Shown: positions 27,508 to 62,852 of the stretch, one piece after another | Layout: each line of letters begins with the position of its first letter | Numbering within the stretch: the first letter of the stretch is position 1 | Source: a virus | DNA: 64,000 bases | Virus record (IMG/VR): IMGVR_UViG_3300017917_003016 | Span: 62,001-126,000 of that record | Reading direction: 5' to 3' (one strand) | Notes under the pieces: model-generated | Told to the model about the DNA's origin: nothing | Databases searched by the model: none | Seen by the model: only the letters and a program-made list of their open reading frames with translations | Made by a program: the position numbers and the translations under genes

Positions 27508-28897
27508 AGAATATTCTCTAGATTTGCAAAAACTGTTTTTGGAAATGATGCTGCAGGATGCGCAGAGTTATGTACGGGTGCAGAATATCTACAATCCAGA
27601 AAACTTTGAACGCAGTCTGCGCAGTGTGGCTAAATTCATAAGCGAGCACACAGATCGGCACAAAACTATGCCTACTCTAGAACAGGTCAAGGCAGTTACC
27701 AACGTTGACCTTCGGAAGGTGCCAGATCTTAATGAAGAACACTACAACTGGTTTTTGGGAGAGTTTGAAGGATTTACCAAACAAAAAGAACTTGAACGTG
27801 CAATTCTCAAAGCCGCAGACATGCTAGAAAAAGGCGAATACGACCCTGTAGAAAAACTCATCAAAGATGCTGTGCAAATCAGTTTGACCAAAGATCTAGG
27901 CACAGAATACTTTGAAGATCCTCGTACAAGATTGATGAAGATCAAATCAAATAACGGACAGGTCAGCACTGGGTGGCCTACACTAGACAAGCGACTGTTT
28001 GGTGGCATGAATCGTGGGGAACTCAACATTTTTGCAGGCGGTTCAGGCAGTGGCAAGAGTCTGTTCATGCAGAATATTTCAATCAATTGGGCTACACAGG
28101 GACTGAATGGAGTATATCTTAGTCTAGAACTGAGTGAGGAACTCTGCGCCATGCGTATGGATAGCATGGTGGCCAATGTCAGCACTAAAGAAGTATTTAG
28201 AGATCTTGACACAGTAGAAATGAAGGTCAAGATGACTGGGAAGAAGTCAGGTAGTTTGCGCATTAAGTATATGCCTGCACAGAGTAATGTTAATCAGATT
28301 CGTGCATATCTTAAAGAACTACAGATACAAACAGGTATCAAACTGGATTTTATCATGGTAGATTACTTAGATTTGGTAATGCCTGTGAGTGCCAAAGTGT
28401 CACCCAACGACCTGTTTGTCAAGGACAAGTATGTCAGTGAAGAACTGCGTAACCTAGCCAGAGAAACCAACATTCTAATGATCACTGCTAGTCAGTTGAA
28501 CAGATCTGCGGTAGAAGAAATTGAATTTGATCATAGTCACATTGCAGGCGGATTGAGTAAGATCAACACAGCAGATAATGTGTTTGGTATTTTCACAAGC
28601 CGTGCTATGCGTGAACGCGGTCGTTATCAAATACAACTTATGAAGACACGTTCAAGTTCGGGTGTAGGACAAAAGGTTGATCTTGAATATGACGTTGAAA
28701 CTCTGCGTATTACCGATCCAGGCGAAGAAGCACAAGAAAATGGATTCAAACAAGAGGGTGCTTCTAACATCTTAAATCAGATAAAAACAGGCAGTACCCT
28801 AAACAGAGAGCCGGGTCAAGACTCTCCTAAAATTAATGCAACAGTTGACAGCAGCAAACTTAAAAACATGCTAGCAGGTTTAAAAAGAGGCGAATAA
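27500..28897 (+). CDS. 41: Replicative DNA helicase, gp41/DnaB-type, 465 aa
   Basis: Hexameric 5'-3' helicase of the fork. The N-terminal helical domain (1-130) is followed by the RecA-like motor: Walker A GGSGSGKS at 180-187, the acidic LSLE at 207-210, Walker B IMVDYLDL near 287-294 and TASQLNRS around 326-333. Length is close to T4 gp41 (475 aa). The ATG overlaps the end of the AT-rich gene upstream, so primase, accessory gene and helicase form one operon. Confidence 0.95.
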   Translation: MTKEYSLDLQKLFLEMMLQDAQSYVRVQNIYNPENFERSLRSVAKFISEHTDRHKTMPTLEQVKAVTNVDLRKVPDLNEEHYNWFLGEFEGFTKQKELERAILKAADMLEKGEYDPVEKLIKDAVQISLTKDLGTEYFEDPRTRLMKIKSNNGQVSTGWPTLDKRLFGGMNRGELNIFAGGSGSGKSLFMQNISINWATQGLNGVYLSLELSEELCAMRMDSMVANVSTKEVFRDLDTVEMKVKMTGKKSGSLRIKYMPAQSNVNQIRAYLKELQIQTGIKLDFIMVDYLDLVMPVSAKVSPNDLFVKDKYVSEELRNLARETNILMITASQLNRSAVEEIEFDHSHIAGGLSKINTADNVFGIFTSRAMRERGRYQIQLMKTRSSSGVGQKVDLEYDVETLRITDPGEEAQENGFKQEGASNILNQIKTGSTLNREPGQDSPKINATVDSSKLKNMLAGLKRGE

Positions 28898-49736: not shown

Positions 49737-49970
49737 ATGGGGTATGACAAAATAATCAAAGGCAACACTGTCTACGTTAAAAACGACAATGTAGATCAGG
49801 CTCTGCGCAAGTTTAAAAAACGTGTACAAGACAGTGGTTTACTGCAAGAACTTCGCGACCGCGAGTTTTATGAAAAGCCAACTAGCGTAAGAAAACGCAA
49901 GGTTGGTGCAGCCAAACAGCGTTGGCGCAAGCGTGTAGAGAGCGAGAAACTACCAAAGAAAATGTTCTAA
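49737..49970 (+). CDS. rpsU: Ribosomal protein bS21, 77 aa
   Basis: Small basic protein matching bS21: VYVKNDNVDQALRKFKKRV, then GLLQELRDREFYEKPTSVRKRKVGAAKQRWRKR. bS21 sits on the 30S subunit by the anti-Shine-Dalgarno region and helps initiation. Phage copies are known in marine phages and could replace the host protein. The gene itself has no canonical binding site; only a distant TTGGGGAA lies about 16 bases upstream. The stop overlaps the convergent radical SAM gene by four bases. Confidence 0.93.
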   Translation: MGYDKIIKGNTVYVKNDNVDQALRKFKKRVQDSGLLQELRDREFYEKPTSVRKRKVGAAKQRWRKRVESEKLPKKMF

Positions 49971-51517
49971 GCAAGTATTTTTTTCATCCGATCGGTGATT
50001 AAATTATCTATAGGATAATTGCTGTTAAGAATATTTTTAATAATTACGTTATTTTGATTTTTATCTGCAAGCATGCTGTGATCGTAACCGATAGTCCTTA
50101 GTTCAGGATATTCAATTAGGTCCGCTGGGTAAAAATTATCGAAGTATTCTCGATCATCTTTTTCAACTAATTTGGCTACCTGTTTAAAACTTACCCCTAC
50201 ATTATTGACCCAACCGTCCTCTCCCCAAGTAAGTTGATATTTTTCATAGTCGTTACTCATTGAATTTGTTTTTATAACAATGTGTTTATGTTCGGGAGGG
50301 GTTACCCAAAGTGCACTATATTTGTAACTGTCAACCAATGGTGTAGTTTTTAACCAAGCCATTGTTTCTAAAATACTGTCGTACGGTTCCCATGGTAATC
50401 CGGCTATCATGAGAGCATTAATTAAAACATCCTGTTTCCATACAGATCTTAAGTGTTCAAGTGTTTCTATAATTCTAGATCGCCCAAGCCCTTTTCCAAC
50501 AAATTTGCCTGCTTTGTCATGCAAGGTTTCAATACCAAAACAACCTAATTTACAACCTGATTCCATCAACCATTGTGCACTTTCTGGATTTGACCAGATA
50601 AGGTCTAATCTCAAATAACTAACCCATTCTGGAGTAAAAGGCAATTTACTCCAAACTTCGTCGTAAAGCGTTTTAATCTTATGATCACTATCATTATACA
50701 AGTCGTCTAATAGATGATATTTGGTAACACCAAACAATTCATAATTTCGAATTAGTTCATCTAATAGCGTTTTGGTGTATTTTGTAGTATCAGATTTTCC
50801 TTTATGATCGTAGGTGCAATAAGCACATTTAAACGCACATCCTCGACTTACTTCTAAAGTTAGCCACTCATCTGGAAGGATATGATCGTTGGGAGTATAA
50901 ATTATACTACTCGATTTAAATTCTTTTTCTCCTTCGTATGACTGTGGAACTGTTGTTTTGTTTGATAAGGCGTTGGTAAAATCAACTATAAAATCTTCAG
51001 TATAACCTACTGAAAAGTGTATGAATGGGCTAGACAAATTTAACGCACCTTTTTTAATATGACTTACCCAGGTACCACCTATCATTAAATGAGCATTTGA
51101 TTTTTTAAAAGCATAATCCGCTAAGGCTGTTAATTCGTCTGTGCCCCAAGCCAGTTGCGTAACGGCGGTAGTTATATAGGTTAAGTTAGTTAATACATTA
51201 AGATTTAAAAAATCTTCAGAACTTTCTCGCCAAAGGGTTCGATATTCGTCAATATTATTAGATTTAATAGTTAAAAAGGTAGTGCTAACGCCTATCCACA
51301 ACAGTGTTGAGGCGTGTTGGTCAATGAGATTTTTAATTGCTCTTAACGTCAGACGCAGGCAATTTGGAACAACTAAAACTTCATACCCTTTAGAACGTAA
51401 CACGCTGGCTACTTTATAGGCTCCAGCGGCTCTAGAGTATCTTTCTAATTGTATACTTGTTCCTTGAAGTTCCCTTGTTAGCGGACTTCTGTCTGTAAAA
51501 AGAATTACTTGAGCCAT
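49967..51517 (-). CDS. B12-binding-type radical SAM protein, 516 aa
   Basis: N-terminal region 1-190 looks like a cobalamin-binding Rossmann domain (YKVASVLRSKGYEVLVVP, WIGVS, HLMIGGTWVS). The radical SAM barrel follows, with CAFKCAYCTYD (Cys-x3-Cys-x2-Cys) near 233-243. LGCFGIETLHDKAGKFVGKG is typical of this class. Substrates of relatives include sugars, lipids and peptides. It is expressed from its own minus-strand late octamer (51538-51545). AT-rich and adjacent to an oxygenase-like gene on the other strand, it looks like an accessory module. Confidence 0.88.
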   Translation of the reverse strand: MAQVILFTDRSPLTRELQGTSIQLERYSRAAGAYKVASVLRSKGYEVLVVPNCLRLTLRAIKNLIDQHASTLLWIGVSTTFLTIKSNNIDEYRTLWRESSEDFLNLNVLTNLTYITTAVTQLAWGTDELTALADYAFKKSNAHLMIGGTWVSHIKKGALNLSSPFIHFSVGYTEDFIVDFTNALSNKTTVPQSYEGEKEFKSSSIIYTPNDHILPDEWLTLEVSRGCAFKCAYCTYDHKGKSDTTKYTKTLLDELIRNYELFGVTKYHLLDDLYNDSDHKIKTLYDEVWSKLPFTPEWVSYLRLDLIWSNPESAQWLMESGCKLGCFGIETLHDKAGKFVGKGLGRSRIIETLEHLRSVWKQDVLINALMIAGLPWEPYDSILETMAWLKTTPLVDSYKYSALWVTPPEHKHIVIKTNSMSNDYEKYQLTWGEDGWVNNVGVSFKQVAKLVEKDDREYFDNFYPADLIEYPELRTIGYDHSMLADKNQNNVIIKNILNSNYPIDNLITDRMKKILA

Positions 51518-52731: not shown

Positions 52732-54648
52732 ATGTCAAAGATCATTGGTATTGACCTTGGCACCACAAATAGTTGTGTGGCCGTTCTTGAAAACAACAAA
52801 CCCCGCGTAATTGAAAATTCAGAAGGTGCTCGTACTACACCTAGTATCGTTGCCTACGGCGACGAAATCATCGTAGGTGCTAGCGCCAAACGACAAGCAG
52901 TGACCAATCCTAAGAAGACTATCTACGCTGCCAAACGTCTAATTGGTCGTAAGTTTGACGAAAAGGAAGTGCAAAAGGACATTGACCTTATGCCTTACAA
53001 GATTGTCAAGAATGACAACGGCGATGCATGGGTAGAAATTGATGACAAAAAACTAGCACCTCCGCAAATTTCAGCAGAAGTTTTGCGCAAAATGAAGAAG
53101 ACTGCCGAAGACTATCTGGGTCATGAAGTTACACAGGCTGTGATTACTGTGCCAGCCTACTTCAACGATGCACAACGCCAGGCCACTAAAGACGCTGGCA
53201 AGATTGCTGGTCTAGAAGTTTTGCGTATTATCAACGAGCCTACTGCTGCTGCACTGGCCTATGGCTGTGACAAGACCTCTAAGAAGGACCAGCGGGTTGC
53301 AGTATATGACCTAGGTGGTGGTACTTTTGATATTAGTATCATTGAAATTTCTGAAGTAGACGGCGAAAAGCAATTTGAAGTTCTTGCTACCAACGGTGAT
53401 ACATTCTTAGGCGGTGAAGACTTTGACCAACGTCTTATGGACTATCTCATTGACGAATTTAAGAAGGATTCAGGTATCGATCTTGGTAAGGATCCAATTG
53501 CCCTGCAACGTGTCAAATCTGCGGCTGAAAAGGCTAAGATCGAACTATCGGGTCAACAACAGACGGAAGTCAATGAACCCTACATTGCTATGGACTCTAC
53601 AGGGCCCAAGCATCTTAACGTTAAGATTACCCGTGCCAAATTTGAAAGTTTGGTTGCAGATCTTATCAAGCGTTCGATTGAACCCTGTAAAGCAGCCATC
53701 AAGGACAGTGGCGTAAATATCGCAGACATCGACGAAGTCATCCTCGTAGGCGGACAAACTCGCATGCCCAAAGTTCAAGAAGCAGTTAAGGAACTGTTTG
53801 GCAAGGAACCTCGCAAGGATGTCAACCCAGATGAAGCAGTTGCCGCCGGTGCTGCAATCCAAGGTGCTGTGTTGGGAGGAGATAAAACAGACGTACTGTT
53901 GCTGGACGTTACTCCTCTTTCTCTAGGAATTGAGACCATCGGTGGAGTGTTTACTAAATTAATTAGAAAGAATACAACTATTCCTACCAAGGCTACCCAA
54001 GTGTTCAGCACCGCAGACGACAATCAACCTGCAGTTACAGTCTGTATTGCACAGGGCGAACGTGAATTTATCAAAGATAACAAGATTCTTGGCCAGTTCA
54101 ACCTTGAGGGTATTGAACCTGCTCCACGTGGAATTCCTCAAATTGAAATTACTCTAGACATTGATGCCAATGGTATTCTTAAGGTATCGGCCAAAGACAA
54201 GAAGACCGGCAAAGAAAACAAGATTACCATCAAGGCCAACAGCGGTCTGAGTGAGGAAGAAATTGAACGCATGGTTAAGGATGCTGAAGCCAATGCTGAA
54301 GCAGATAAAAAAGCACGTGCACTAGTGGACACTAAAAACAATGCTGAACAGCAGATCTATAGTGTTAAGAAGACATTAGACGAACTTGGCGACAAGATTA
54401 CGTCTGATGAAAAGACCGCTATTGAAACTGCTATCAAAGCCGTTGAAGAAGCAATTAACGGCGATGATATTTCTGGTATTACTGACAAGGTGGAGGAACT
54501 TACCAAAGTTTCTGGTCCGCTATTTGCTGCATACCAGGCTGATGCTGCTGCCAAACAAGCAGAAGTGCAGCCCGGTGAGCCACAAAATTCAGAGAAGGCA
54601 GCGGATGTAGTTGATGCTGAATTCACTGAAGTAAAGAAAGATGCCTAA
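52732..54648 (+). CDS. dnaK: Chaperone DnaK (Hsp70), 638 aa
   Basis: Full-length Hsp70, the same length as E. coli DnaK. N-terminal [13 protein letters not shown], then [24 protein letters not shown] and the linker [19 protein letters not shown]. The substrate-binding domain and lid follow, ending VVDAEFTEV. Folds proteins in an ATP cycle with DnaJ and GrpE, neither of which is in this window, so host partners are implied. Preceded by an exact late octamer and a ROSE-like hairpin, followed by hsp20 with the same hairpin. Confidence 0.97.
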
Positions 54649-54665
54649 TGGGTCTTTCATGTTAA

Positions 54666-54684
54666 TCTTGCTTAATTAAGGAGA
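54666..54684 (+). promoter_or_regulatory. ROSE-like RNA thermometer hairpin upstream of hsp20
   Basis: TCTTGCTT, loop AATT, AAGGAGA. Same TTGCT anti-Shine-Dalgarno box, bulged G (54670), U-G pair and seven-base spacing to the ATG at 54691 as the dnaK hairpin; only the loop and flanks differ. Confidence 0.78.
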
Positions 54685-54690
54685 CTAAAA

Positions 54691-55134
54691 ATGAAGCAAC
54701 ACTATGTTACAACTTTTGATATTCCAACAATCAGTCGTTTTGCTGTGGGTTTTGACCGTATGTTTGATGAACTTCAGCGCACCGCTACTACCCTTAATGG
54801 TACCAACTATCCTCCCTACAACATCGTTAGGGTCGATGAAACTCAATATGACATCGAGTTGGCCGTAGCAGGTTTTGAAGAAGATGAATTGGATGTTGAA
54901 GTACAAAATGGTGAACTCAGCATTCGCGGTGAAAGCAAGAGCGAGTCTGCTCGACTGGGAAATTATATCCATCAGGGTATTGCTAGTCGTAATTTTGTAC
55001 GTACATTTGCTCTGGCAGATAATGTAGAAGTCAGGACCGCCACTGTTAAGAATGGAATCCTTACAGTGAAGTTAGAAGTAATTGTGCCTGAGCACGAAAA
55101 GCCAAAAAAGATTGCTATTACTTTTCAAAAGTGA
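54691..55134 (+). CDS. ibpA: Small heat shock protein Hsp20/IbpA-type, 147 aa
   Basis: Alpha-crystallin domain at about 40-140: PPYNIVRVDETQYDIELAVAGF near the start, GELSIRGE in the middle, and ASRNFVRTFALADNVEVRTATVKNGILTVKLE with the conserved (A)x(L)xNGxL motif. N-terminal FDRMFDEL matches IbpA-type starts. Holds unfolded proteins for DnaK. Encoded 42 bases after dnaK, with the shared ROSE-like leader. Confidence 0.95.
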   Translation: MKQHYVTTFDIPTISRFAVGFDRMFDELQRTATTLNGTNYPPYNIVRVDETQYDIELAVAGFEEDELDVEVQNGELSIRGESKSESARLGNYIHQGIASRNFVRTFALADNVEVRTATVKNGILTVKLEVIVPEHEKPKKIAITFQK

Positions 55135-55139
55135 TATAA

Positions 55140-55167
55140 TATAAATACTGGGGGAGGAAACTCCCCC
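55140..55167 (+). promoter_or_regulatory. Late promoter and GAAA-capped GC hairpin before clpS
   Basis: Exact TATAAATA (55140-55147) is followed at once by GGGGGAG-GAAA-CTCCCCC (55150-55167). No T run follows, so it is not a standard terminator. The stem could stabilise the 5' end of the clpS message or close the hsp20 message. Confidence 0.6.
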
Positions 55168-55188
55168 AACTAATATAATAAGGACGCT

Positions 55189-55497
55189 ATGAGCACAAAA
55201 GTTGTTACCAAAACCAAAGTCTCGCCAAATCTTAATCTACAAGAGCCTCCTCAGTACAAGGTTATATATATCAATGATGATGTTACTACCATGGAGTTTG
55301 TAATTGAATCTTTGATTTCAGTTTTTGATTACACTCTCGATGATGCGGTATTTTTAACTAAGAAAATTCATGATGAAGGTACTGGAGTCGCTGCAATTCT
55401 TCCCTATGAAATGGCCGAACAGAAGGGAGTTGAAGTCACACAACTGGCGCGCAATAATGGATTTCCTTTAAATATTAAGTTGGAGCCGCAGGGATGA
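55189..55497 (+). CDS. clpS: ClpS protease adaptor, 102 aa
   Basis: ClpS core: YKVIYINDDVTTMEFVIESL with the Asn-Asp-Asp binding site at 29-31, then KKIHDEGTGVAAI with His61, then EVTQLARNNGFPL. ClpS hands N-degron proteins to ClpAP. A phage copy could redirect host proteolysis. Preceded by AAGGAC and a late octamer. The stop overlaps the next ATG (GGATGATT). Confidence 0.95.
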   Translation: MSTKVVTKTKVSPNLNLQEPPQYKVIYINDDVTTMEFVIESLISVFDYTLDDAVFLTKKIHDEGTGVAAILPYEMAEQKGVEVTQLARNNGFPLNIKLEPQG

Positions 55498-56894: not shown

Positions 56895-57377
56895 ATGAAA
56901 AAAACAATAACCTACCTCGCTCTACTCGCCTCTGCACAGGTTGCTCAGGCGGCAGAGTTGGTACATCAATTTAACAGCCCGGCATTCAGTGGAGCCGGCT
57001 ACAGTGCTCACGTACTTACCGTTAAACAATTAGAAGATCAAGCCAAAGAAAAAAATCACGCTGCAGCCGAAGCCATAAAAGCAAAAGCAGAACAGGAAGC
57101 AGCCAATACTCCCCAGGCACGTTTTATTGCTAATCTAGAATCACGTATCTATAGTCAATTGGCTAAACAATTGACCGATACTATGTTTGGTGAAGGCGCG
57201 ACCTGTACAACCACTGGGGTTATTTGTGGTACTATTGACAACTTAGGTGGCAATAGTATTAGTTGGATGTTGGGTGCCGGCAGCGATGCAGGAAATATAA
57301 TTATAACAATTAGAGACCTTAATAATACTAGTAATATTACAACAATGAAGGTCCCTGCCGGTACGTTTTACTTTTAA
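56895..57377 (+). CDS. csgF: Curli assembly factor CsgF, 160 aa
   Basis: Sec signal peptide (MKKTITYLALLASAQVAQA), then AELVHQFNSPAFSGAGYSA, matching the conserved mature N terminus of CsgF (F-Q/F-NPxFGG) that plugs into the CsgG pore. C-terminal DNLGGNSISWMLGAG and TMKVPAGTF also fit. CsgF sits on the cell surface and couples secretion to fibre nucleation. First gene of a five-gene cluster; csgG starts nine bases later. Confidence 0.93.
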   Translation: MKKTITYLALLASAQVAQAAELVHQFNSPAFSGAGYSAHVLTVKQLEDQAKEKNHAAAEAIKAKAEQEAANTPQARFIANLESRIYSQLAKQLTDTMFGEGATCTTTGVICGTIDNLGGNSISWMLGAGSDAGNIIITIRDLNNTSNITTMKVPAGTFYF

Positions 57378-57386
57378 GGATGCTAG

Positions 57387-58265
57387 ATGAAAAGATCAAT
57401 ACTTGCGATTGCAGTTCTGACTGCACTAACAGGGTGTGCTAGTTCTAGCGCACTTCGAGAAAAGGCCTTTGGTGAACAGTTTGACCCTCCTACTGTAGAG
57501 CGAGAAACATTTTTTACCAAAGCAGAAAATCAATTAGCGCCGCCGGCTAGTGGACCAATCCCTGTAGCAGTCTATAGTTTTACTGACCGCACTGGACAAC
57601 GTAAAAACATTCCTAACATTGCTAGTTTTTCAACAGCAGTGACACAAGGTGGAGAAGCCTATCTTATCAAGGCTCTTCAGGATGTTGGCAACGGTCGTTG
57701 GTTTACTGTATTAGAACGTGTGGGACTGGACAACCTCATTAAAGAACGTCAGATGATACGCCAAATGCGTGAGCAATATCAGGGACGCGATGCTAAACCA
57801 TTACCGCCAATGGTGTTTGCTGGCATGATTGTAGAAGGAGCAATCACAGGATACGACAGTAATAGTTTAACAGGCGGTAGCGGAGCAAGAATTTTAGGTA
57901 TTGGCGCACAGACACAGTACCAAAGCGATACTGTTACAGTTACCCTTAGAACTATCAGTGTTAATACAGGAGAAGTTTTAACCACTGTTACTGTTACAAA
58001 AACTGTGCTGAGTTATATGGACAAGTTTGGTGTACTTAAATTTGTCAGCGCAGGCGAGCGTGCTATAGAAGCAGAGGCCGGCATGAGCATAAACGAAAGC
58101 ATTAACAAGGCCACTAGTCTAGCGGTCAAAGCAGCAGTAGTAGAAACTATTCGAGAAGGTGTCCGTAAAGGATATTGGGCACACAAGGCAGACAATCAAG
58201 AATCTGCTGTCAAGGTCGTACCTTTGCCTGCAGAACCCGCAGTGCAAAGTGAACAATTAAATTAA
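57387..58265 (+). CDS. csgG: Curli secretion pore lipoprotein CsgG, 292 aa
   Basis: Lipoprotein signal ending LTGC with acylated Cys17. The CsgG core contains PIPVAVYSFTDRTGQRK, GRWFTVLERVGLDNLIKERQMIR, MIVEGAITGYDSN, the beta-barrel hairpins around TQYQSDTVTVTLRTISVNTGEV and VTVTKTVLSYM, and the GEAYLIKAL helix. It forms a nonameric outer-membrane channel. Length matches bacterial CsgG (277 aa) plus a short tail. CsgE is not encoded here. Confidence 0.95.
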   Translation: MKRSILAIAVLTALTGCASSSALREKAFGEQFDPPTVERETFFTKAENQLAPPASGPIPVAVYSFTDRTGQRKNIPNIASFSTAVTQGGEAYLIKALQDVGNGRWFTVLERVGLDNLIKERQMIRQMREQYQGRDAKPLPPMVFAGMIVEGAITGYDSNSLTGGSGARILGIGAQTQYQSDTVTVTLRTISVNTGEVLTTVTVTKTVLSYMDKFGVLKFVSAGERAIEAEAGMSINESINKATSLAVKAAVVETIREGVRKGYWAHKADNQESAVKVVPLPAEPAVQSEQLN

Positions 58266-58277
58266 AGGAGCAAGGCA

Positions 58278-59057
58278 ATGAAACTAAAAACTTTAGTTAG
58301 TTTAGTCGCCCTAGTAGTAGCAGGATCGGCATATGCTGCCGGCGAAACCGGTCCAAACCGCGTGTATATTGAACAAATTGGTAACACTAACCTTATAACC
58401 ATTCAGCAGGTTGGTGGCACCAACGACGTTGGCGGTGTTGCAGGCAGTGCTAGTGTTGATGTAACAGGCGTAACAACCTTGACAGTTACAGCACCTAGTA
58501 CCAGTAACTACGCTACTATTAACGGCAGTAGTAACACAGTAACACTGACACAAACTGGTAGCAATAACCAAGCACAGTACAATATCAAAGGTGGTAACAA
58601 TACCTATACCAGCACAATGACTGGTAATAATAATCAAACCAAACTAACTGTGGGTTCTACCAATACCAACGGTTCACAAAATTCAATAACTGAAACTGCA
58701 ACCGGTAGCAGTAATATGTTTATCACTGATGTTGTAGGCAGTAGCAATACTTTGGCAACTACAGTAACTGGTAGTTCAAACCAAATTACTCAGAGTGTTT
58801 TAACTAGCAATGCTGACATTACTAATACTGTTAGTGGTAGCAACAATATTTTTAATATTCAACAACGTGATGCTGCAGGCAGTGCTGGACACAGTCTGAC
58901 CATGGCAACCACAGGTGACTACAATAGCATTACCACTCAGCAGCAAGGTACTAATGACACCACTGTTAATATTTCTACTCAAGGTGATCACAATACCATC
59001 ACAGTTCGTACTAGCAGCACTAGTATATTAAACTCAGCCACAGCCATAGCGAGGTAA
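58278..59057 (+). CDS. Secreted curlin-repeat protein, 259 aa
   Basis: AAAGGAGCAAGGC before the ATG is a strong binding site. Signal peptide MKLKTLVSLVALVVAGSAYA, then NRVYIEQIGNTNLITIQQVG. At least eight Asn/Gln/Thr/Ser-rich repeats of the form N.(V/I).(L/I)TQ.G..N follow, the amyloid curlin pattern (Q-x-G-x-x-N). Longer than CsgA (151 aa) and without a clear N22 CsgG-targeting segment. Likely a substrate of the adjacent CsgG/CsgF pair. Confidence 0.85.
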   Translation: MKLKTLVSLVALVVAGSAYAAGETGPNRVYIEQIGNTNLITIQQVGGTNDVGGVAGSASVDVTGVTTLTVTAPSTSNYATINGSSNTVTLTQTGSNNQAQYNIKGGNNTYTSTMTGNNNQTKLTVGSTNTNGSQNSITETATGSSNMFITDVVGSSNTLATTVTGSSNQITQSVLTSNADITNTVSGSNNIFNIQQRDAAGSAGHSLTMATTGDYNSITTQQQGTNDTTVNISTQGDHNTITVRTSSTSILNSATAIAR

Positions 59058-59060
59058 GCC

Positions 59061-60146
59061 GTGAGGGCTTATCTTGCTGCGGCATTGCTGTTAGCCAGCG
59101 TTGGGGCATGGGCAGGCATAGGTGTAGTCAGTGACACCAAGGGATCTGCCTGTGCAATCGAACGTGCTAAAAAATCATTACCTGGAGACAAAGGTGCAGC
59201 CGTTGAATCAATGGACACCTATGTTACCGGTGGGTGTGTGAGTAACATAACCTTTAATGACGACACTCGGGTTAAAATAACAGAAAACAGTAGACTGCTA
59301 ATCGATGATTTTGTGTTTGATCCCAAAAAGAGCGATGCAGGCAAGTTGGCCTTAAAAGTTTCCATGGGCACGGTTCGGTATGCCAGCGGGCAAATAGCCA
59401 AGAACAATCCACAGCGAGTTGATATTAAAACACCCAGTGCTACTATTGCAGTGCGCGGTACTGATTTTAACATGACTGTTGATGAAACCGGTCAGAGTCT
59501 TGTGATTCTTGTACCTAGTTGTAGAGACAAAGACAAGGTCAAAGAGTATGAATTAGAGGAAAATACCTGTAAAGTAGGAAAGATTGAGGTGACCACCCTG
59601 GCGGGAACTGTGAGTCTGGACAAGGCGTTTGAAGCAACATATGTGGTCAATGCCACAGTACCGCCCACACCTCCGGTAGTGCTAAACACAGTAGAAGGTA
59701 AGATTAGTAATCTACTGATTATTTCTGGGCCGCCTGAAATTCAGCGAATGATGAAGGACAACAGTAAGGCCCGCAAAGAGCAAGAAGATTGGGAAGCCGA
59801 ACAGGCCAGACAGATAGCACAACGTATAAAAGAAGGTCAGCACGAAGAGACTCCTAAAGTAGTTTCCTACACATTTGACAATGGAAAAACCGGATGTAAC
59901 CCTTCTACTAGTATTTGTGTGCGTTGGGAAAAACCCGACGGAGAAACCATACAGGATCGAGGCAAGGGTACTGCCTTTCGCTCAAATGCAGATCACTATG
60001 CAGAAGTCAAAACTCTAGGCTATGACAGCAACACTTCTCTAACCATTACTCACGATGACAGTGTAGCCACAGCACAGATTGGCAGCGGTGATTTTGGAGG
60101 CAACGTAGTTAACATCAAACAAACTACCGGAGTTCTAAGAAAATGA
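59061..60146 (+). CDS. Secreted FecR-domain protein, 361 aa
   Basis: GTG start three bases after the curlin gene. Signal peptide MRAYLAAALLLASVGAWA. FecR-type beta domain at about 50-200: VSNITFNDDTRVKITENSRLLIDDF, KVSMGTVRYASGQI, and PSATIAVRGTDFNM. This arrangement is found in exported proteins rather than in the sigma-regulator FecR with its membrane helix. C-terminal half charged, then beta-rich. It may cap, anchor or chaperone the amyloid; inference from position. Overlaps the next gene by four bases. Confidence 0.85.
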   Translation: MRAYLAAALLLASVGAWAGIGVVSDTKGSACAIERAKKSLPGDKGAAVESMDTYVTGGCVSNITFNDDTRVKITENSRLLIDDFVFDPKKSDAGKLALKVSMGTVRYASGQIAKNNPQRVDIKTPSATIAVRGTDFNMTVDETGQSLVILVPSCRDKDKVKEYELEENTCKVGKIEVTTLAGTVSLDKAFEATYVVNATVPPTPPVVLNTVEGKISNLLIISGPPEIQRMMKDNSKARKEQEDWEAEQARQIAQRIKEGQHEETPKVVSYTFDNGKTGCNPSTSICVRWEKPDGETIQDRGKGTAFRSNADHYAEVKTLGYDSNTSLTITHDDSVATAQIGSGDFGGNVVNIKQTTGVLRK

Positions 60147-61558
60147 AGTTCGTTATCGGTCTGATATTTTTGTTACTGTCTTCACTAGCACAGGCTCAAG
60201 ACCTCAGTTGGGAATCGGGTACACTCAATGGTTGGACTGTGGGTGGCGGTAGTTCAAGTTCTGTTAAATCATCAGGTTGGAGTTCAAACGGCATAGGTGC
60301 AGCAGTCAGTGGCGGTCTTACTAACTATTCTCCAGGCGGCGGCAAAACCTGGACTATTGCTCCCTATGGTACTTACATGGGTAGCCTGCAGCCAGGCAAC
60401 GGTTCGGTAACATTCGATACTGCTGTGTCAAATCTTGGATTAAGCAGCACAGAAAACACTGCAATAAAAAGTTATCTAAGTTATCAGGCCAGCAACGGCG
60501 GCGGTGGGAACCCTACACCAACTAACGCTACATGGATCAAACAAACTGTGGCACTCACAGCAGGGCAGACCTATACCATTGCATGGAACTATCTATCAAC
60601 AGATTACACTCCTTGGAACGACGGTTCTATGATAACGCTGACTCATACTACCAATGCCAATATCACTCCAACCCTAAATAACAAACAGCAAAGATATGGA
60701 CTATTGGGATTTACCAATCCGGGAACTGGTGAATATGCCACAGGTTCATACGGTAGTACCGGCTGGCAAGTGGCCGTGTTTACAGTGCCAGAAACAGGCA
60801 ACTATGTCTTAGGTTTTGCATCATTTAATCTAGGCGACACTGCACTAAGTCCTATTTTGTTTGTTGATCAATTGCAGGGTGTTACTACACTAAATGGTCA
60901 AAGTTTTGGTCCTGTTGCACCTAATCCTGGCAGCACAGCACCAACTGCACCTTCCGGTGGTGGCAGTTCTTTGTGCTGTGGCGGAAGTTCAGCAAGTTTT
61001 ACCATGGATGCAGACAAAGCAGCCAGTGTCAACGCATTTAAAAATCGTACCACAGCAGACAGTAAGGTCTACGTAGATCAAATTGGCAATGGCAATACTA
61101 TCACTGTTCAGCAAACGGGCACTAAAAATAACTATGCAGAATACAACGGCAATGGTAGTTCTAATACGGTAAACATAACTCAAAGCGGAACTGCAGCCAC
61201 AGAAGCCAACTATACAAGACTAGATATTATTGGCAACAGCAACACTGTCAATCTAACACAGACCAGCACTGGTGGGACTAAAAGTGTATTTGCCAGTATA
61301 AACAATAACAATAATTCAGTAACCATATTACAAAAAGACGCCGGCAGTCATCACCTAGATCTTACCTTAAGCGGTGGTGGCAAAACTGTAGACATCACAC
61401 AACAAGGATCTGCAGCACACATGGCAGACATTACCCTCACAGGCGCAGGTTCACGCAGCCTTACCTTGACTCAGCAGGGCAGTACTCAGCAATTCTACAG
61501 TATTAACAGCAGTTGTGCTTCAAGTTGTCAGGCCATAACCGTCACACAAGGACAATAA
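60143..61558 (+). CDS. Secreted jellyroll plus curlin-repeat protein, 471 aa
   Basis: Signal peptide MKFVIGLIFLLLSSLAQA. Residues 20-255 form a beta-sandwich-like domain (LSWESGTLNGWTVGGG, then VFTVPETGNYVLGFASFNLGD) resembling carbohydrate-binding modules. A Cys pair (SLCCGG) and linker follow. Residues 300-471 carry curlin repeats (SKVYVDQIGNGNTITVQQTG, then SNTVNITQSG, SNTVNLTQTS, KTVDITQQG). The opening repeat is nearly the same as in the 259-aa curlin, so both may nucleate on one another. A candidate surface-binding curli minor subunit. Confidence 0.85.
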   Translation: MKFVIGLIFLLLSSLAQAQDLSWESGTLNGWTVGGGSSSSVKSSGWSSNGIGAAVSGGLTNYSPGGGKTWTIAPYGTYMGSLQPGNGSVTFDTAVSNLGLSSTENTAIKSYLSYQASNGGGGNPTPTNATWIKQTVALTAGQTYTIAWNYLSTDYTPWNDGSMITLTHTTNANITPTLNNKQQRYGLLGFTNPGTGEYATGSYGSTGWQVAVFTVPETGNYVLGFASFNLGDTALSPILFVDQLQGVTTLNGQSFGPVAPNPGSTAPTAPSGGGSSLCCGGSSASFTMDADKAASVNAFKNRTTADSKVYVDQIGNGNTITVQQTGTKNNYAEYNGNGSSNTVNITQSGTAATEANYTRLDIIGNSNTVNLTQTSTGGTKSVFASINNNNNSVTILQKDAGSHHLDLTLSGGGKTVDITQQGSAAHMADITLTGAGSRSLTLTQQGSTQQFYSINSSCASSCQAITVTQGQ

Positions 61559-61580: not shown

Positions 61581-61661
61581 ATGAGTTGGACTAATCACAA
61601 AACGCCCACACCAAAAGTACCACCAAGCCAATCAAAACCACCGCACCAGCCTAATCGTTGA
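61581..61661 (+). CDS. Proline-rich peptide, 26 aa
   Basis: GTGGAGGACC lies upstream of the ATG. The peptide begins MSWTNHKTPTPKVPP and is rich in Pro, Lys, His and Gln. Its stop codon lies inside the loop of the terminator hairpin that follows. The strong ribosome binding site and late octamer support translation; no family known. Confidence 0.5.
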   Translation: MSWTNHKTPTPKVPPSQSKPPHQPNR

Positions 61662-61673
61662 TTAGGCTTTTTT
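61649..61673 (+). terminator. Intrinsic terminator
   Basis: GCCTAAT / ATTAGGC stem with CGTTG loop and six T's. It ends the curli-side transcript and isolates the PqqA-like gene. Confidence 0.88.
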
Positions 61674-61796
61674 AATGGTTTTACGCATGGTTTTTAGGGG
61701 TTTTAGGCCATATACTGTGTATAAGTAATTGTGTAACAGTATTCATTGTTATACGGTTACGAGACAACTTTAGTTTTTTATAAAGGAGAAATAAAC

Positions 61797-61868
61797 ATGT
61801 GGACCAAACCCGCTGCTCAAGACAAGCGTTTCGGTTTTGAAGTAACCATGTATATTGCTGCTCGCTAA
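61797..61868 (+). CDS. pqqA: PqqA-like PQQ precursor peptide, 23 aa
   Basis: The 23-residue product has the family pattern at every key point: MWTKP at 1-5, Asp9, Arg11, GFEVTMY at 13-19 with Glu15 and Tyr19 (the two residues fused by PqqE to make PQQ), and a final Arg23. Bacterial PqqA peptides are 23-24 aa with the same EVTxY core. AAAGGAGAA lies seven bases before the ATG, and strong terminators flank the gene on both sides, so it is a separate transcript. A candidate promoter is the TATACT at 61711-61716. No pqqB-E genes are seen here, so host enzymes would be needed. Confidence 0.85.
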   Translation: MWTKPAAQDKRFGFEVTMYIAAR

Positions 61869-61885
61869 TCGAGTAACAAGTACTG

Positions 61886-61912
61886 AAAAGCCCGCCTAGT
61901 GCGGGCTTTTTT
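61886..61912 (+). terminator. Intrinsic terminator after the PqqA-like gene
   Basis: AAAAGCCCGC / GCGGGCTTTT ten-bp stem with CTAGT loop and T run. Confidence 0.92.
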
Positions 61913-61955: not shown

Positions 61956-62852
61956 ATGACTCGATATTCTTCCTATCATGAATTTGATCAAGATACAAAA
62001 AACTTACCAAGAATAAGTTATCTTGAGACCATGCTGACCTATGCTTGCACACTGAGTTGTCGCAGTTGTACAAACTACAGCGACTACGGTATGAAAGGTG
62101 GGCATGTCAAATGGTCTACAGCGAAACCGTGGTTAGATGCATGGTTTGATCGTATACGAGTGGACTGCTTTGGTTTTATTGGTGGCGAACCTCTAATGAA
62201 TCCAGAATTAGAAACATGGATTAGAGAATTTCGTAAAAACTATCCATTTACTACAATTATGATTGTAACCAATGCTCAACTGTTTACAAAAAATCTTTGG
62301 ATACTAGATGTTATGGAAGAACTAGGTATGATTTACCTTAAGTTCACTAATCACATTCCCAAAGCCAAATATTTTACCAAAGCGGTGGATACAGTATTAT
62401 CTAGATTTCCGTGGGAATATAAACCCGAGTGGGAAAGGTATTTTTATCAAGAAAAAATTCTAGACTTTCTTGTTAGTGAATCACCAACTTTTATGAAAAC
62501 CTATCGGGGTGAGTATGGTTCAATGAAACCCTACAACAACGATCCACAACAGGCATTTAAGATTTGTAATCAACAAATTTGTCCTCTTCTTTATAACGGT
62601 CGCCTCTACAAGTGTAGCAGCCTAGGTATGCTATCGAGAGTTTTACAAGACCACGGCCAAGTTGACGATCCTGACTGGCAACCGTTTGTGCAAAATCAAG
62701 GATTGGATTTAAGTTGTTCTGATGAAGAATTGCGAGCATGGGCTGATAATTTTGGTAAGCCTATTAAAGAATGTAGGATGTGCCCAACAGAGAAAGATAA
62801 ACCTTTTCATTCTCACTATGACACAGTTGTTAATAGAATTAACATTTTTTAA
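61956..62852 (+). CDS. Radical SAM protein with SPASM/twitch-like Cys tail, 298 aa
   Basis: LTYACTLSCRSCTNYSDYG carries Cys-x3-Cys-x2-Cys for the [4Fe-4S] SAM cluster. FGFIGGEPLMNPEL holds the GGEP motif. C-terminal CNQQICPLLYNGRLYKCSS and CRMCP supply four or five cysteines for an auxiliary cluster, as in peptide- or sugar-modifying radical SAM enzymes. It lies 87 bases after the PqqA-like gene. It is not close enough in pattern to call PqqE, but peptide modification is a reasonable guess. Confidence 0.88.
   Translation: MTRYSSYHEFDQDTKNLPRISYLETMLTYACTLSCRSCTNYSDYGMKGGHVKWSTAKPWLDAWFDRIRVDCFGFIGGEPLMNPELETWIREFRKNYPFTTIMIVTNAQLFTKNLWILDVMEELGMIYLKFTNHIPKAKYFTKAVDTVLSRFPWEYKPEWERYFYQEKILDFLVSESPTFMKTYRGEYGSMKPYNNDPQQAFKICNQQICPLLYNGRLYKCSSLGMLSRVLQDHGQVDDPDWQPFVQNQGLDLSCSDEELRAWADNFGKPIKECRMCPTEKDKPFHSHYDTVVNRINIF

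Follow-up and report, generated by a model that had tools for sequence, protein, structure and literature searches.

The feature described here is a 23-codon reading frame at positions 61797-61868 (plus strand) of the window, i.e., of the 64,000-nucleotide stretch that was analysed, which covers positions 62,001 to 126,000 of the viral record IMGVR_UViG_3300017917_003016. Its 23-aa product, MWTKPAAQDKRFGFEVTMYIAAR, contains in translation every element that the initial annotation had pointed out, that is, the MWTKP start, the GFEVTMY core, Glu15 and Tyr19, with the Glu and Tyr spaced four residues apart like the pair joined by PqqE. The peptide scored above the cut-off of both curated PqqA models over their full length (Pfam PF08042, 35.4 bits vs. 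a cut-off of 21.1, model positions 1-19 of 19; NCBIfam TIGR02107, 34.1 bits vs. a cut-off of 20, model positions 1-21 of 21), and therefore what had been proposed as a PqqA-like peptide is confirmed, at the level of family models, as a true PqqA. In the search of the whole 201,732-base record the match reached an E-value of 2.1e-8 and was the sole PqqA found, vs. zero of 14 control genomes matching. Position 10 is Lys in this peptide, where Met, Leu, Ile, Val and, rarely, Asn were seen in the sampled relatives; a PDB sequence search with the peptide gave zero matches.

A strong ribosome-binding site, AAAGGAG, is located at 61782-61788 (plus strand), 8 nt 5' of the pqqA ATG, and a hairpin scan placed the gene between two terminator-like hairpins with T runs on the same strand, one of nine pairs upstream (61648-61668) and one of 11 pairs downstream (61885-61911), in agreement with the arrangement noted at first reading. 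The number of terminator-like sites in the pqqA region is not above chance (two observed vs. 1.6 +/- 1.4 in shuffles), and the two calls therefore rest on position and quality. The upstream hairpin would halt read-through out of the curli-like genes described below, and the downstream one appears to set pqqA apart from the radical SAM gene that follows. At 61720-61727 (plus strand), 77 nt 5' of the ATG, TATAAGTA represents a candidate, unproven T4-type late promoter, based on what we take to be a likeness to the late promoters of T4; the motif was not significantly enriched in the window (14 occurrences vs. 8.6 +/- 3.2 in shuffles, with 7 of 100 shuffles reaching 14). An Rfam search of the window gave zero matches. 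Separately, a 26-aa proline-rich frame, MSWTNHKTPTPKVPPSQSKPPHQPNR, is found at 61581-61661 (plus strand), with GGAGG before its start and its end inside the upstream terminator; no family matched it in profile searches.

Judging by its genes, the record is plainly that of a contractile-tailed phage, encoding a terminase large subunit (54% identity to PA5oct-type jumbo Pseudomonas phages), a tail sheath, UvsX, a single-strand binding protein, a DnaB-type helicase and a ribonucleotide reductase. A dense tRNA array that covers most amino acids starts at record position 125,958, where the window is about to end, with a tmRNA farther along; these RNA genes were located from about 125,958 and at about 152,844-153,399 of the record (the latter on locus L008). 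The phage also carries a chaperone set composed of DnaK (638 aa, HSP70 855 bits), HSP20, a ClpS adaptor and a full GroEL, at window positions 52732-55494 (plus strand) and at L008:9417-11036 (the locus just named). Upstream of pqqA, at 56895-61558 (plus strand), there is a curli-like set with CsgF (PF10614, 43.4 bits, cut-off 25.8), CsgG (170.7 bits; 42% identity to Melnitz and 44% to HTVC008M), a FecR-domain protein and two curlin-repeat proteins with apparent signal peptides, the product of 60143-61555 scoring above the Curlin_rpt cut-off and that of 58278-59054 below it. The available text of PMC9004378 describes Melnitz as having csgF and csgG without csgA and csgB, and the window phage may carry the amyloid subunits that are missing there.

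Beyond the second terminator, 88 bases past the pqqA stop and on the same strand, a gene at 61956-62852, which the initial annotation had passed over, encodes a 298-aa radical SAM enzyme with a CxxxCxxC motif and further conserved cysteines. This proximity, together with the cysteines, could suggest that PqqA and the enzyme form a small phage pathway to a different modified peptide. However, a terminator-like hairpin stands between the two genes, and the enzyme is not PqqE; it has the radical SAM class and the CxxxCxxC motif in common with PqqE but differs from it in its 298-aa length and its TIGR02109 score (17.2 bits vs. a cut-off of 381), and its candidacy as a phage PqqE was rejected. Nor did the two genes occur together elsewhere: 391 of 599 candidate viral stretches were confirmed as holding relatives of the enzyme, and PqqA was present in the fetched flanks, many of which end with the contig, of none of the 83 examined (the best 80 of the 391 plus three more loci), while a motif scan of 120 viral pqqA loci revealed no convincing radical SAM gene next to pqqA among the matches listed. 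In Synechococcus phage S-SCSM2R, a relative of the enzyme lies amid glycosyltransferase/sugar and aminocyclitol-type genes; a PDB sequence search with the enzyme itself gave a single weak match, 7wzv. We judge that the enzyme probably stands outside the PqqA function and does not travel with pqqA, that the adjacency is most simply a matter of chance, and that a two-gene pathway is highly improbable.

Genes that could go with PqqA were searched for, with models for PqqD, methanol dehydrogenase and radical SAM, over 51 records with a phage pqqA (the window's record, 44 IMG/VR records of at least about 15 kb, with shorter contigs excluded and the record of locus L098 omitted, and six phage genomes). 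PqqD was found in none of the 51 records, nor in the window's own 201,732-base record at E-values up to 1; one record (that of locus L056) has a methanol dehydrogenase, and four have radical SAM genes. When ten radical SAM proteins taken from these records were scanned, none scored as PqqE at E-values up to 1e-10. The window's record has three radical SAM genes, of which two were scanned with NCBIfam models, neither passing PqqE, and the third (window 49967-51517) was scanned with PHROGs only. That is, the PqqD search and the NCBIfam PqqE scan of two of the three radical SAM proteins revealed no partner in the same genome that would make the gene part of a PqqABCDE operon; likewise, TIGR03075, the one model tried for a PQQ-dependent alcohol dehydrogenase, found none in this record. 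Since PqqD is found in 0 of 51 records and methanol dehydrogenase in one of 51, the phage most likely brings just the consumable precursor and would supply it, alone, to the PqqBCDE of its host. As an observation apart, the jumbo viral record IMGVR_UViG_3300023174_000036 (L264, 356,312 bases) combines pqqA with ten radical SAM matches, some of them to a twitch-domain family.

Relatives of the gene were collected from IMG/VR in two scans, each returning a sample of at least 120 stretches. The first, with the pattern GFEVTMY, found a PqqA-like reading frame in all 120 stretches among the matches listed; because this pattern presupposes the core, the second scan fixed residues 1-12 in outline and left residues 13-23 free. 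All 119 complete peptides of the free-residue scan (among the matches listed) are 23 aa long and retain Glu15 and Tyr19, the 120th peptide being cut off at its contig's end, and the conservation of the two reacting residues in related phages, on which the initial annotation had staked its reading, was therefore observed without these residues having been preset in the search. The Tyr19 codon is TAT in 60 and TAC in 59 of these peptides, i.e., synonymous change is free, and pN/pS was 0.024 for codons 13-19 vs. 0.21 for codons 20-23, computed on the 106 distinct DNA sequences among the 119 (counting distinct DNAs was the sole handling of contig redundancy). Viral pqqA is thus maintained, with its reacting residues under strong purifying selection. 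Of 120 related viral pqqA genes, 114 have a Shine-Dalgarno-like sequence ahead of the start, vs. 38 of 595 random ATGs, and a complete PqqA is encoded on 151 of the 152 IMG/VR contigs that were fetched (67 distinct peptides, among the matches listed).

These data also bear on whether the gene could be a functionless passenger, that is, recent host DNA or bacterial contamination. As might be expected for a passenger, 52 of the 152 viral contigs encode a peptide identical letter for letter to a bacterial PqqA (compared with a host sample of 118 loci), and a bacterial pqqA can stand by itself (locus L198). The low pN/pS and the frequent ribosome-binding sites are, however, at odds with a lack of function, the genes beside viral pqqA match phage families in nine of ten records tested (including terminase, capsid and DNA polymerase), and the window's record is itself a phage by its genes, all of which renders a passenger extremely improbable. 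A different alternative is that phage PqqA acts as a decoy that occupies the host PqqD and PqqE and stops PQQ synthesis. Flooding PqqD with peptide is conceivable in principle, but the reacting Glu and Tyr, which are invariant in the sample described above, would be dispensable in a decoy, and the hosts themselves multiply their pqqA copies; accordingly, we regard a decoy as very unlikely. We favor instead, as likely, a genuine phage-borne pqqA that acts as a precursor-only metabolic gene, and its presence and selection in genuine phages are as expected of an auxiliary metabolic gene of methylotroph phages.

The genuine phages in question include cultured ones. Among 50,697 annotated phage records, 12 matched PqqA and 10 were judged genuine, namely Melnitz (four records), Venkman, P19250A, MEP301, MEP401, MEP402 and one environmental genome (Manatee Spring). 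The two 'Acinetobacter phage MD-2021a' records were dropped from the count; the one contig read of the two (CAKLQF020000010.1, L259) looks like bacterial chromosome, since polyphosphate kinase lies there beside pqqB, pqqC, PqqD and a radical SAM gene. The PqqA of each isolate is 23-24 aa long, and a ribosome-binding site precedes the gene in those inspected (Melnitz-1, P19250A, Venkman, MEP301 and MEP402). None of the 10 genuine records has PqqA annotated, because gene callers skip 23-codon genes, and the annotations of Melnitz-1 and of the Manatee Spring genome show an antisense hypothetical gene across pqqA; the earlier remark that the gene is too short for standard gene calling and easily missed thus proved apt. 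In P19250A (KX815270.1, L254), for instance, the translated sequence reveals an unannotated PqqA at 28085-28153 (minus strand). The isolates differ in genome (T4-like Melnitz; P19250A and Venkman; MEP301; MEP401/402), and the nine with recorded hosts infect Methylophilales/Methylophilaceae. Other named Methylophilales phages in the taxonomy were not among the 12 matches, and the collection may not hold their sequences.

The host of the window phage itself was approached through its chaperones and its PqqA. Both GroEL and DnaK share about 70-75% identity with betaproteobacteria vs. mostly 65-70% with most sampled gammaproteobacteria, which hints at a betaproteobacterial host. The best GroEL identities are scattered over the whole betaproteobacterial order with no clear family, the DnaK signal is alike, and in a GroEL tree the phage sits on a long branch and is not placed. 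Bacterial PqqA peptides were obtained by a scan for RFGFEVTMY (at least 118 stretches, most of them, among the matches listed, from genera with methylotrophic names), and the closest of the 118 loci compared, at 21 of 23 residues, belongs to a betaproteobacterial MAG of unproven methylotrophy. Given chaperones that show no clear family, a tree that does not place the phage and this PqqA match, it is by analogy with the other PqqA phages that a methylotroph host is likely. The earlier suggestion of a host with pqq genes, such as a methylotroph, hence stands for the group, given that nine of the ten PqqA phage records come from Methylophilales/Methylophilaceae, which have pqqBCDE and several pqqA copies, whereas for the window phage it is narrowed to a betaproteobacterial signal.

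It is possible, though we consider it doubtful, that the phage PqqA feeds PQQ synthesis in a non-methylotrophic betaproteobacterium, with the PQQ destined for another alcohol or sugar dehydrogenase. The unassigned MAG carrying the nearest PqqA among the 118 loci and chaperones that do not favor Methylophilaceae are compatible with such a host, as are the PqqA genes of Paraburkholderia, Caballeronia and Burkholderia, which are plasmid-borne too. However, each of the nine PqqA isolates whose host is on record infects a methylotroph, no further genuine host-recorded phage with PqqA was found among the 50,697 records, and both 'Acinetobacter phage' matches resemble bacterial chromosome, based on the one contig read.

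PqqA and PQQ stand in a 1:1 ratio, with the peptide being consumed and the enzymes of the pathway being re-usable. The peptide is therefore the sole part needed in quantity, and a phage would need to carry just the 72-base gene. Under the precursor-only reading, the phage would make extra PqqA peptide off its own short transcript during infection, host PqqD and PqqE would bind the peptide and link Glu15 with Tyr19, and PQQ would then be completed by a protease, PqqB and PqqC of the host, following the known pathway, in which PqqE cross-links the side chains of Glu and Tyr while PqqD holds the peptide and a protease, PqqB and PqqC finish the cofactor (accessible portion of PMC10906245). In this way, the gene would keep PQQ-dependent dehydrogenases charged as host expression falls; in a methylotroph, the dehydrogenase kept charged would be methanol dehydrogenase. 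Consistent with what is expected if peptide dosage matters, Methylophilaceae genomes are described, in the part of PMC4109929 available, as having 3-12 pqqA copies with typically a single set of the other pqq genes, pqqBCDE included, and most methylotroph genomes counted here have two to seven copies (maximum seven). The phage pqqA would then represent one more precursor dose during infection, and phages of methylotrophs probably use it to sustain the energy supply of the host through infection. One further proposition, which we see as evenly balanced, is that phages of methylotrophs as a rule carry pqqA alone, several unrelated lineages having acquired it separately because PQQ supply limits infection; what feeds infection would then be a consumable cofactor precursor and not an enzyme, and a gene for an RFGFEVTMY peptide in a phage genome could serve to mark a methylotroph host.

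In lakes and coastal seas, methanol is turned over by methylotrophs, and PQQ is the cofactor that methanol dehydrogenase needs. A precursor-only phage gene would be a clean, testable case of a virus easing a single bottleneck in metabolism for very little genome space, and with 23-codon genes being skipped by gene callers, pqqA is undercounted when the effect of viruses on methanol oxidation is surveyed. Cultured pairs, i.e., Melnitz and Venkman on H5P1, and MEP301 and MEP401/402 on OM43 strains, make phage pqqA directly testable. Phage PqqA is already published: the available text of PMC7678222 (Coutinho et al. 2020) reports PqqA in the T4-like Lake Baikal virus population VP_266, regards it as an auxiliary metabolic gene that increases both PQQ and methanol oxidation, and says that P19250A carries none of the metabolic genes reported there, a statement that the P19250A sequence contradicts; pqqA is also named among viral genes in the portion of PMC13188868 available. 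In the papers checked, we found no account of how widely it occurs or of its being carried by cultured methylophages. 'pqq' is absent from the main texts of PMC8024684, PMC8163748 and PMC10580990 (cultured methylophage papers) and appears once, for the growth medium, in that of PMC9004378, and no survey of PqqA across phages was found in a literature search whose reach excluded preprints and most subscription papers.

In comparison with known systems, the window phage shares with VP_266 a PqqA gene in a phage, but VP_266 and VP_139 carry methanol dehydrogenase (according to the available text of PMC7678222), whereas TIGR03075 identified none in the window's record. The chromosomal pqqA of methylotrophs encodes a peptide with the same length, MW-x-x-P leader, G-F-E-V-T-M-Y core and Glu/Tyr pair four residues apart; the phage differs in having its pqqA without a PqqD partner and a Lys at position 10. 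Finally, the methylophage isolates have genomes different from that of the window phage, yet share PqqA with it and, in the case of Melnitz, CsgF and CsgG as well.
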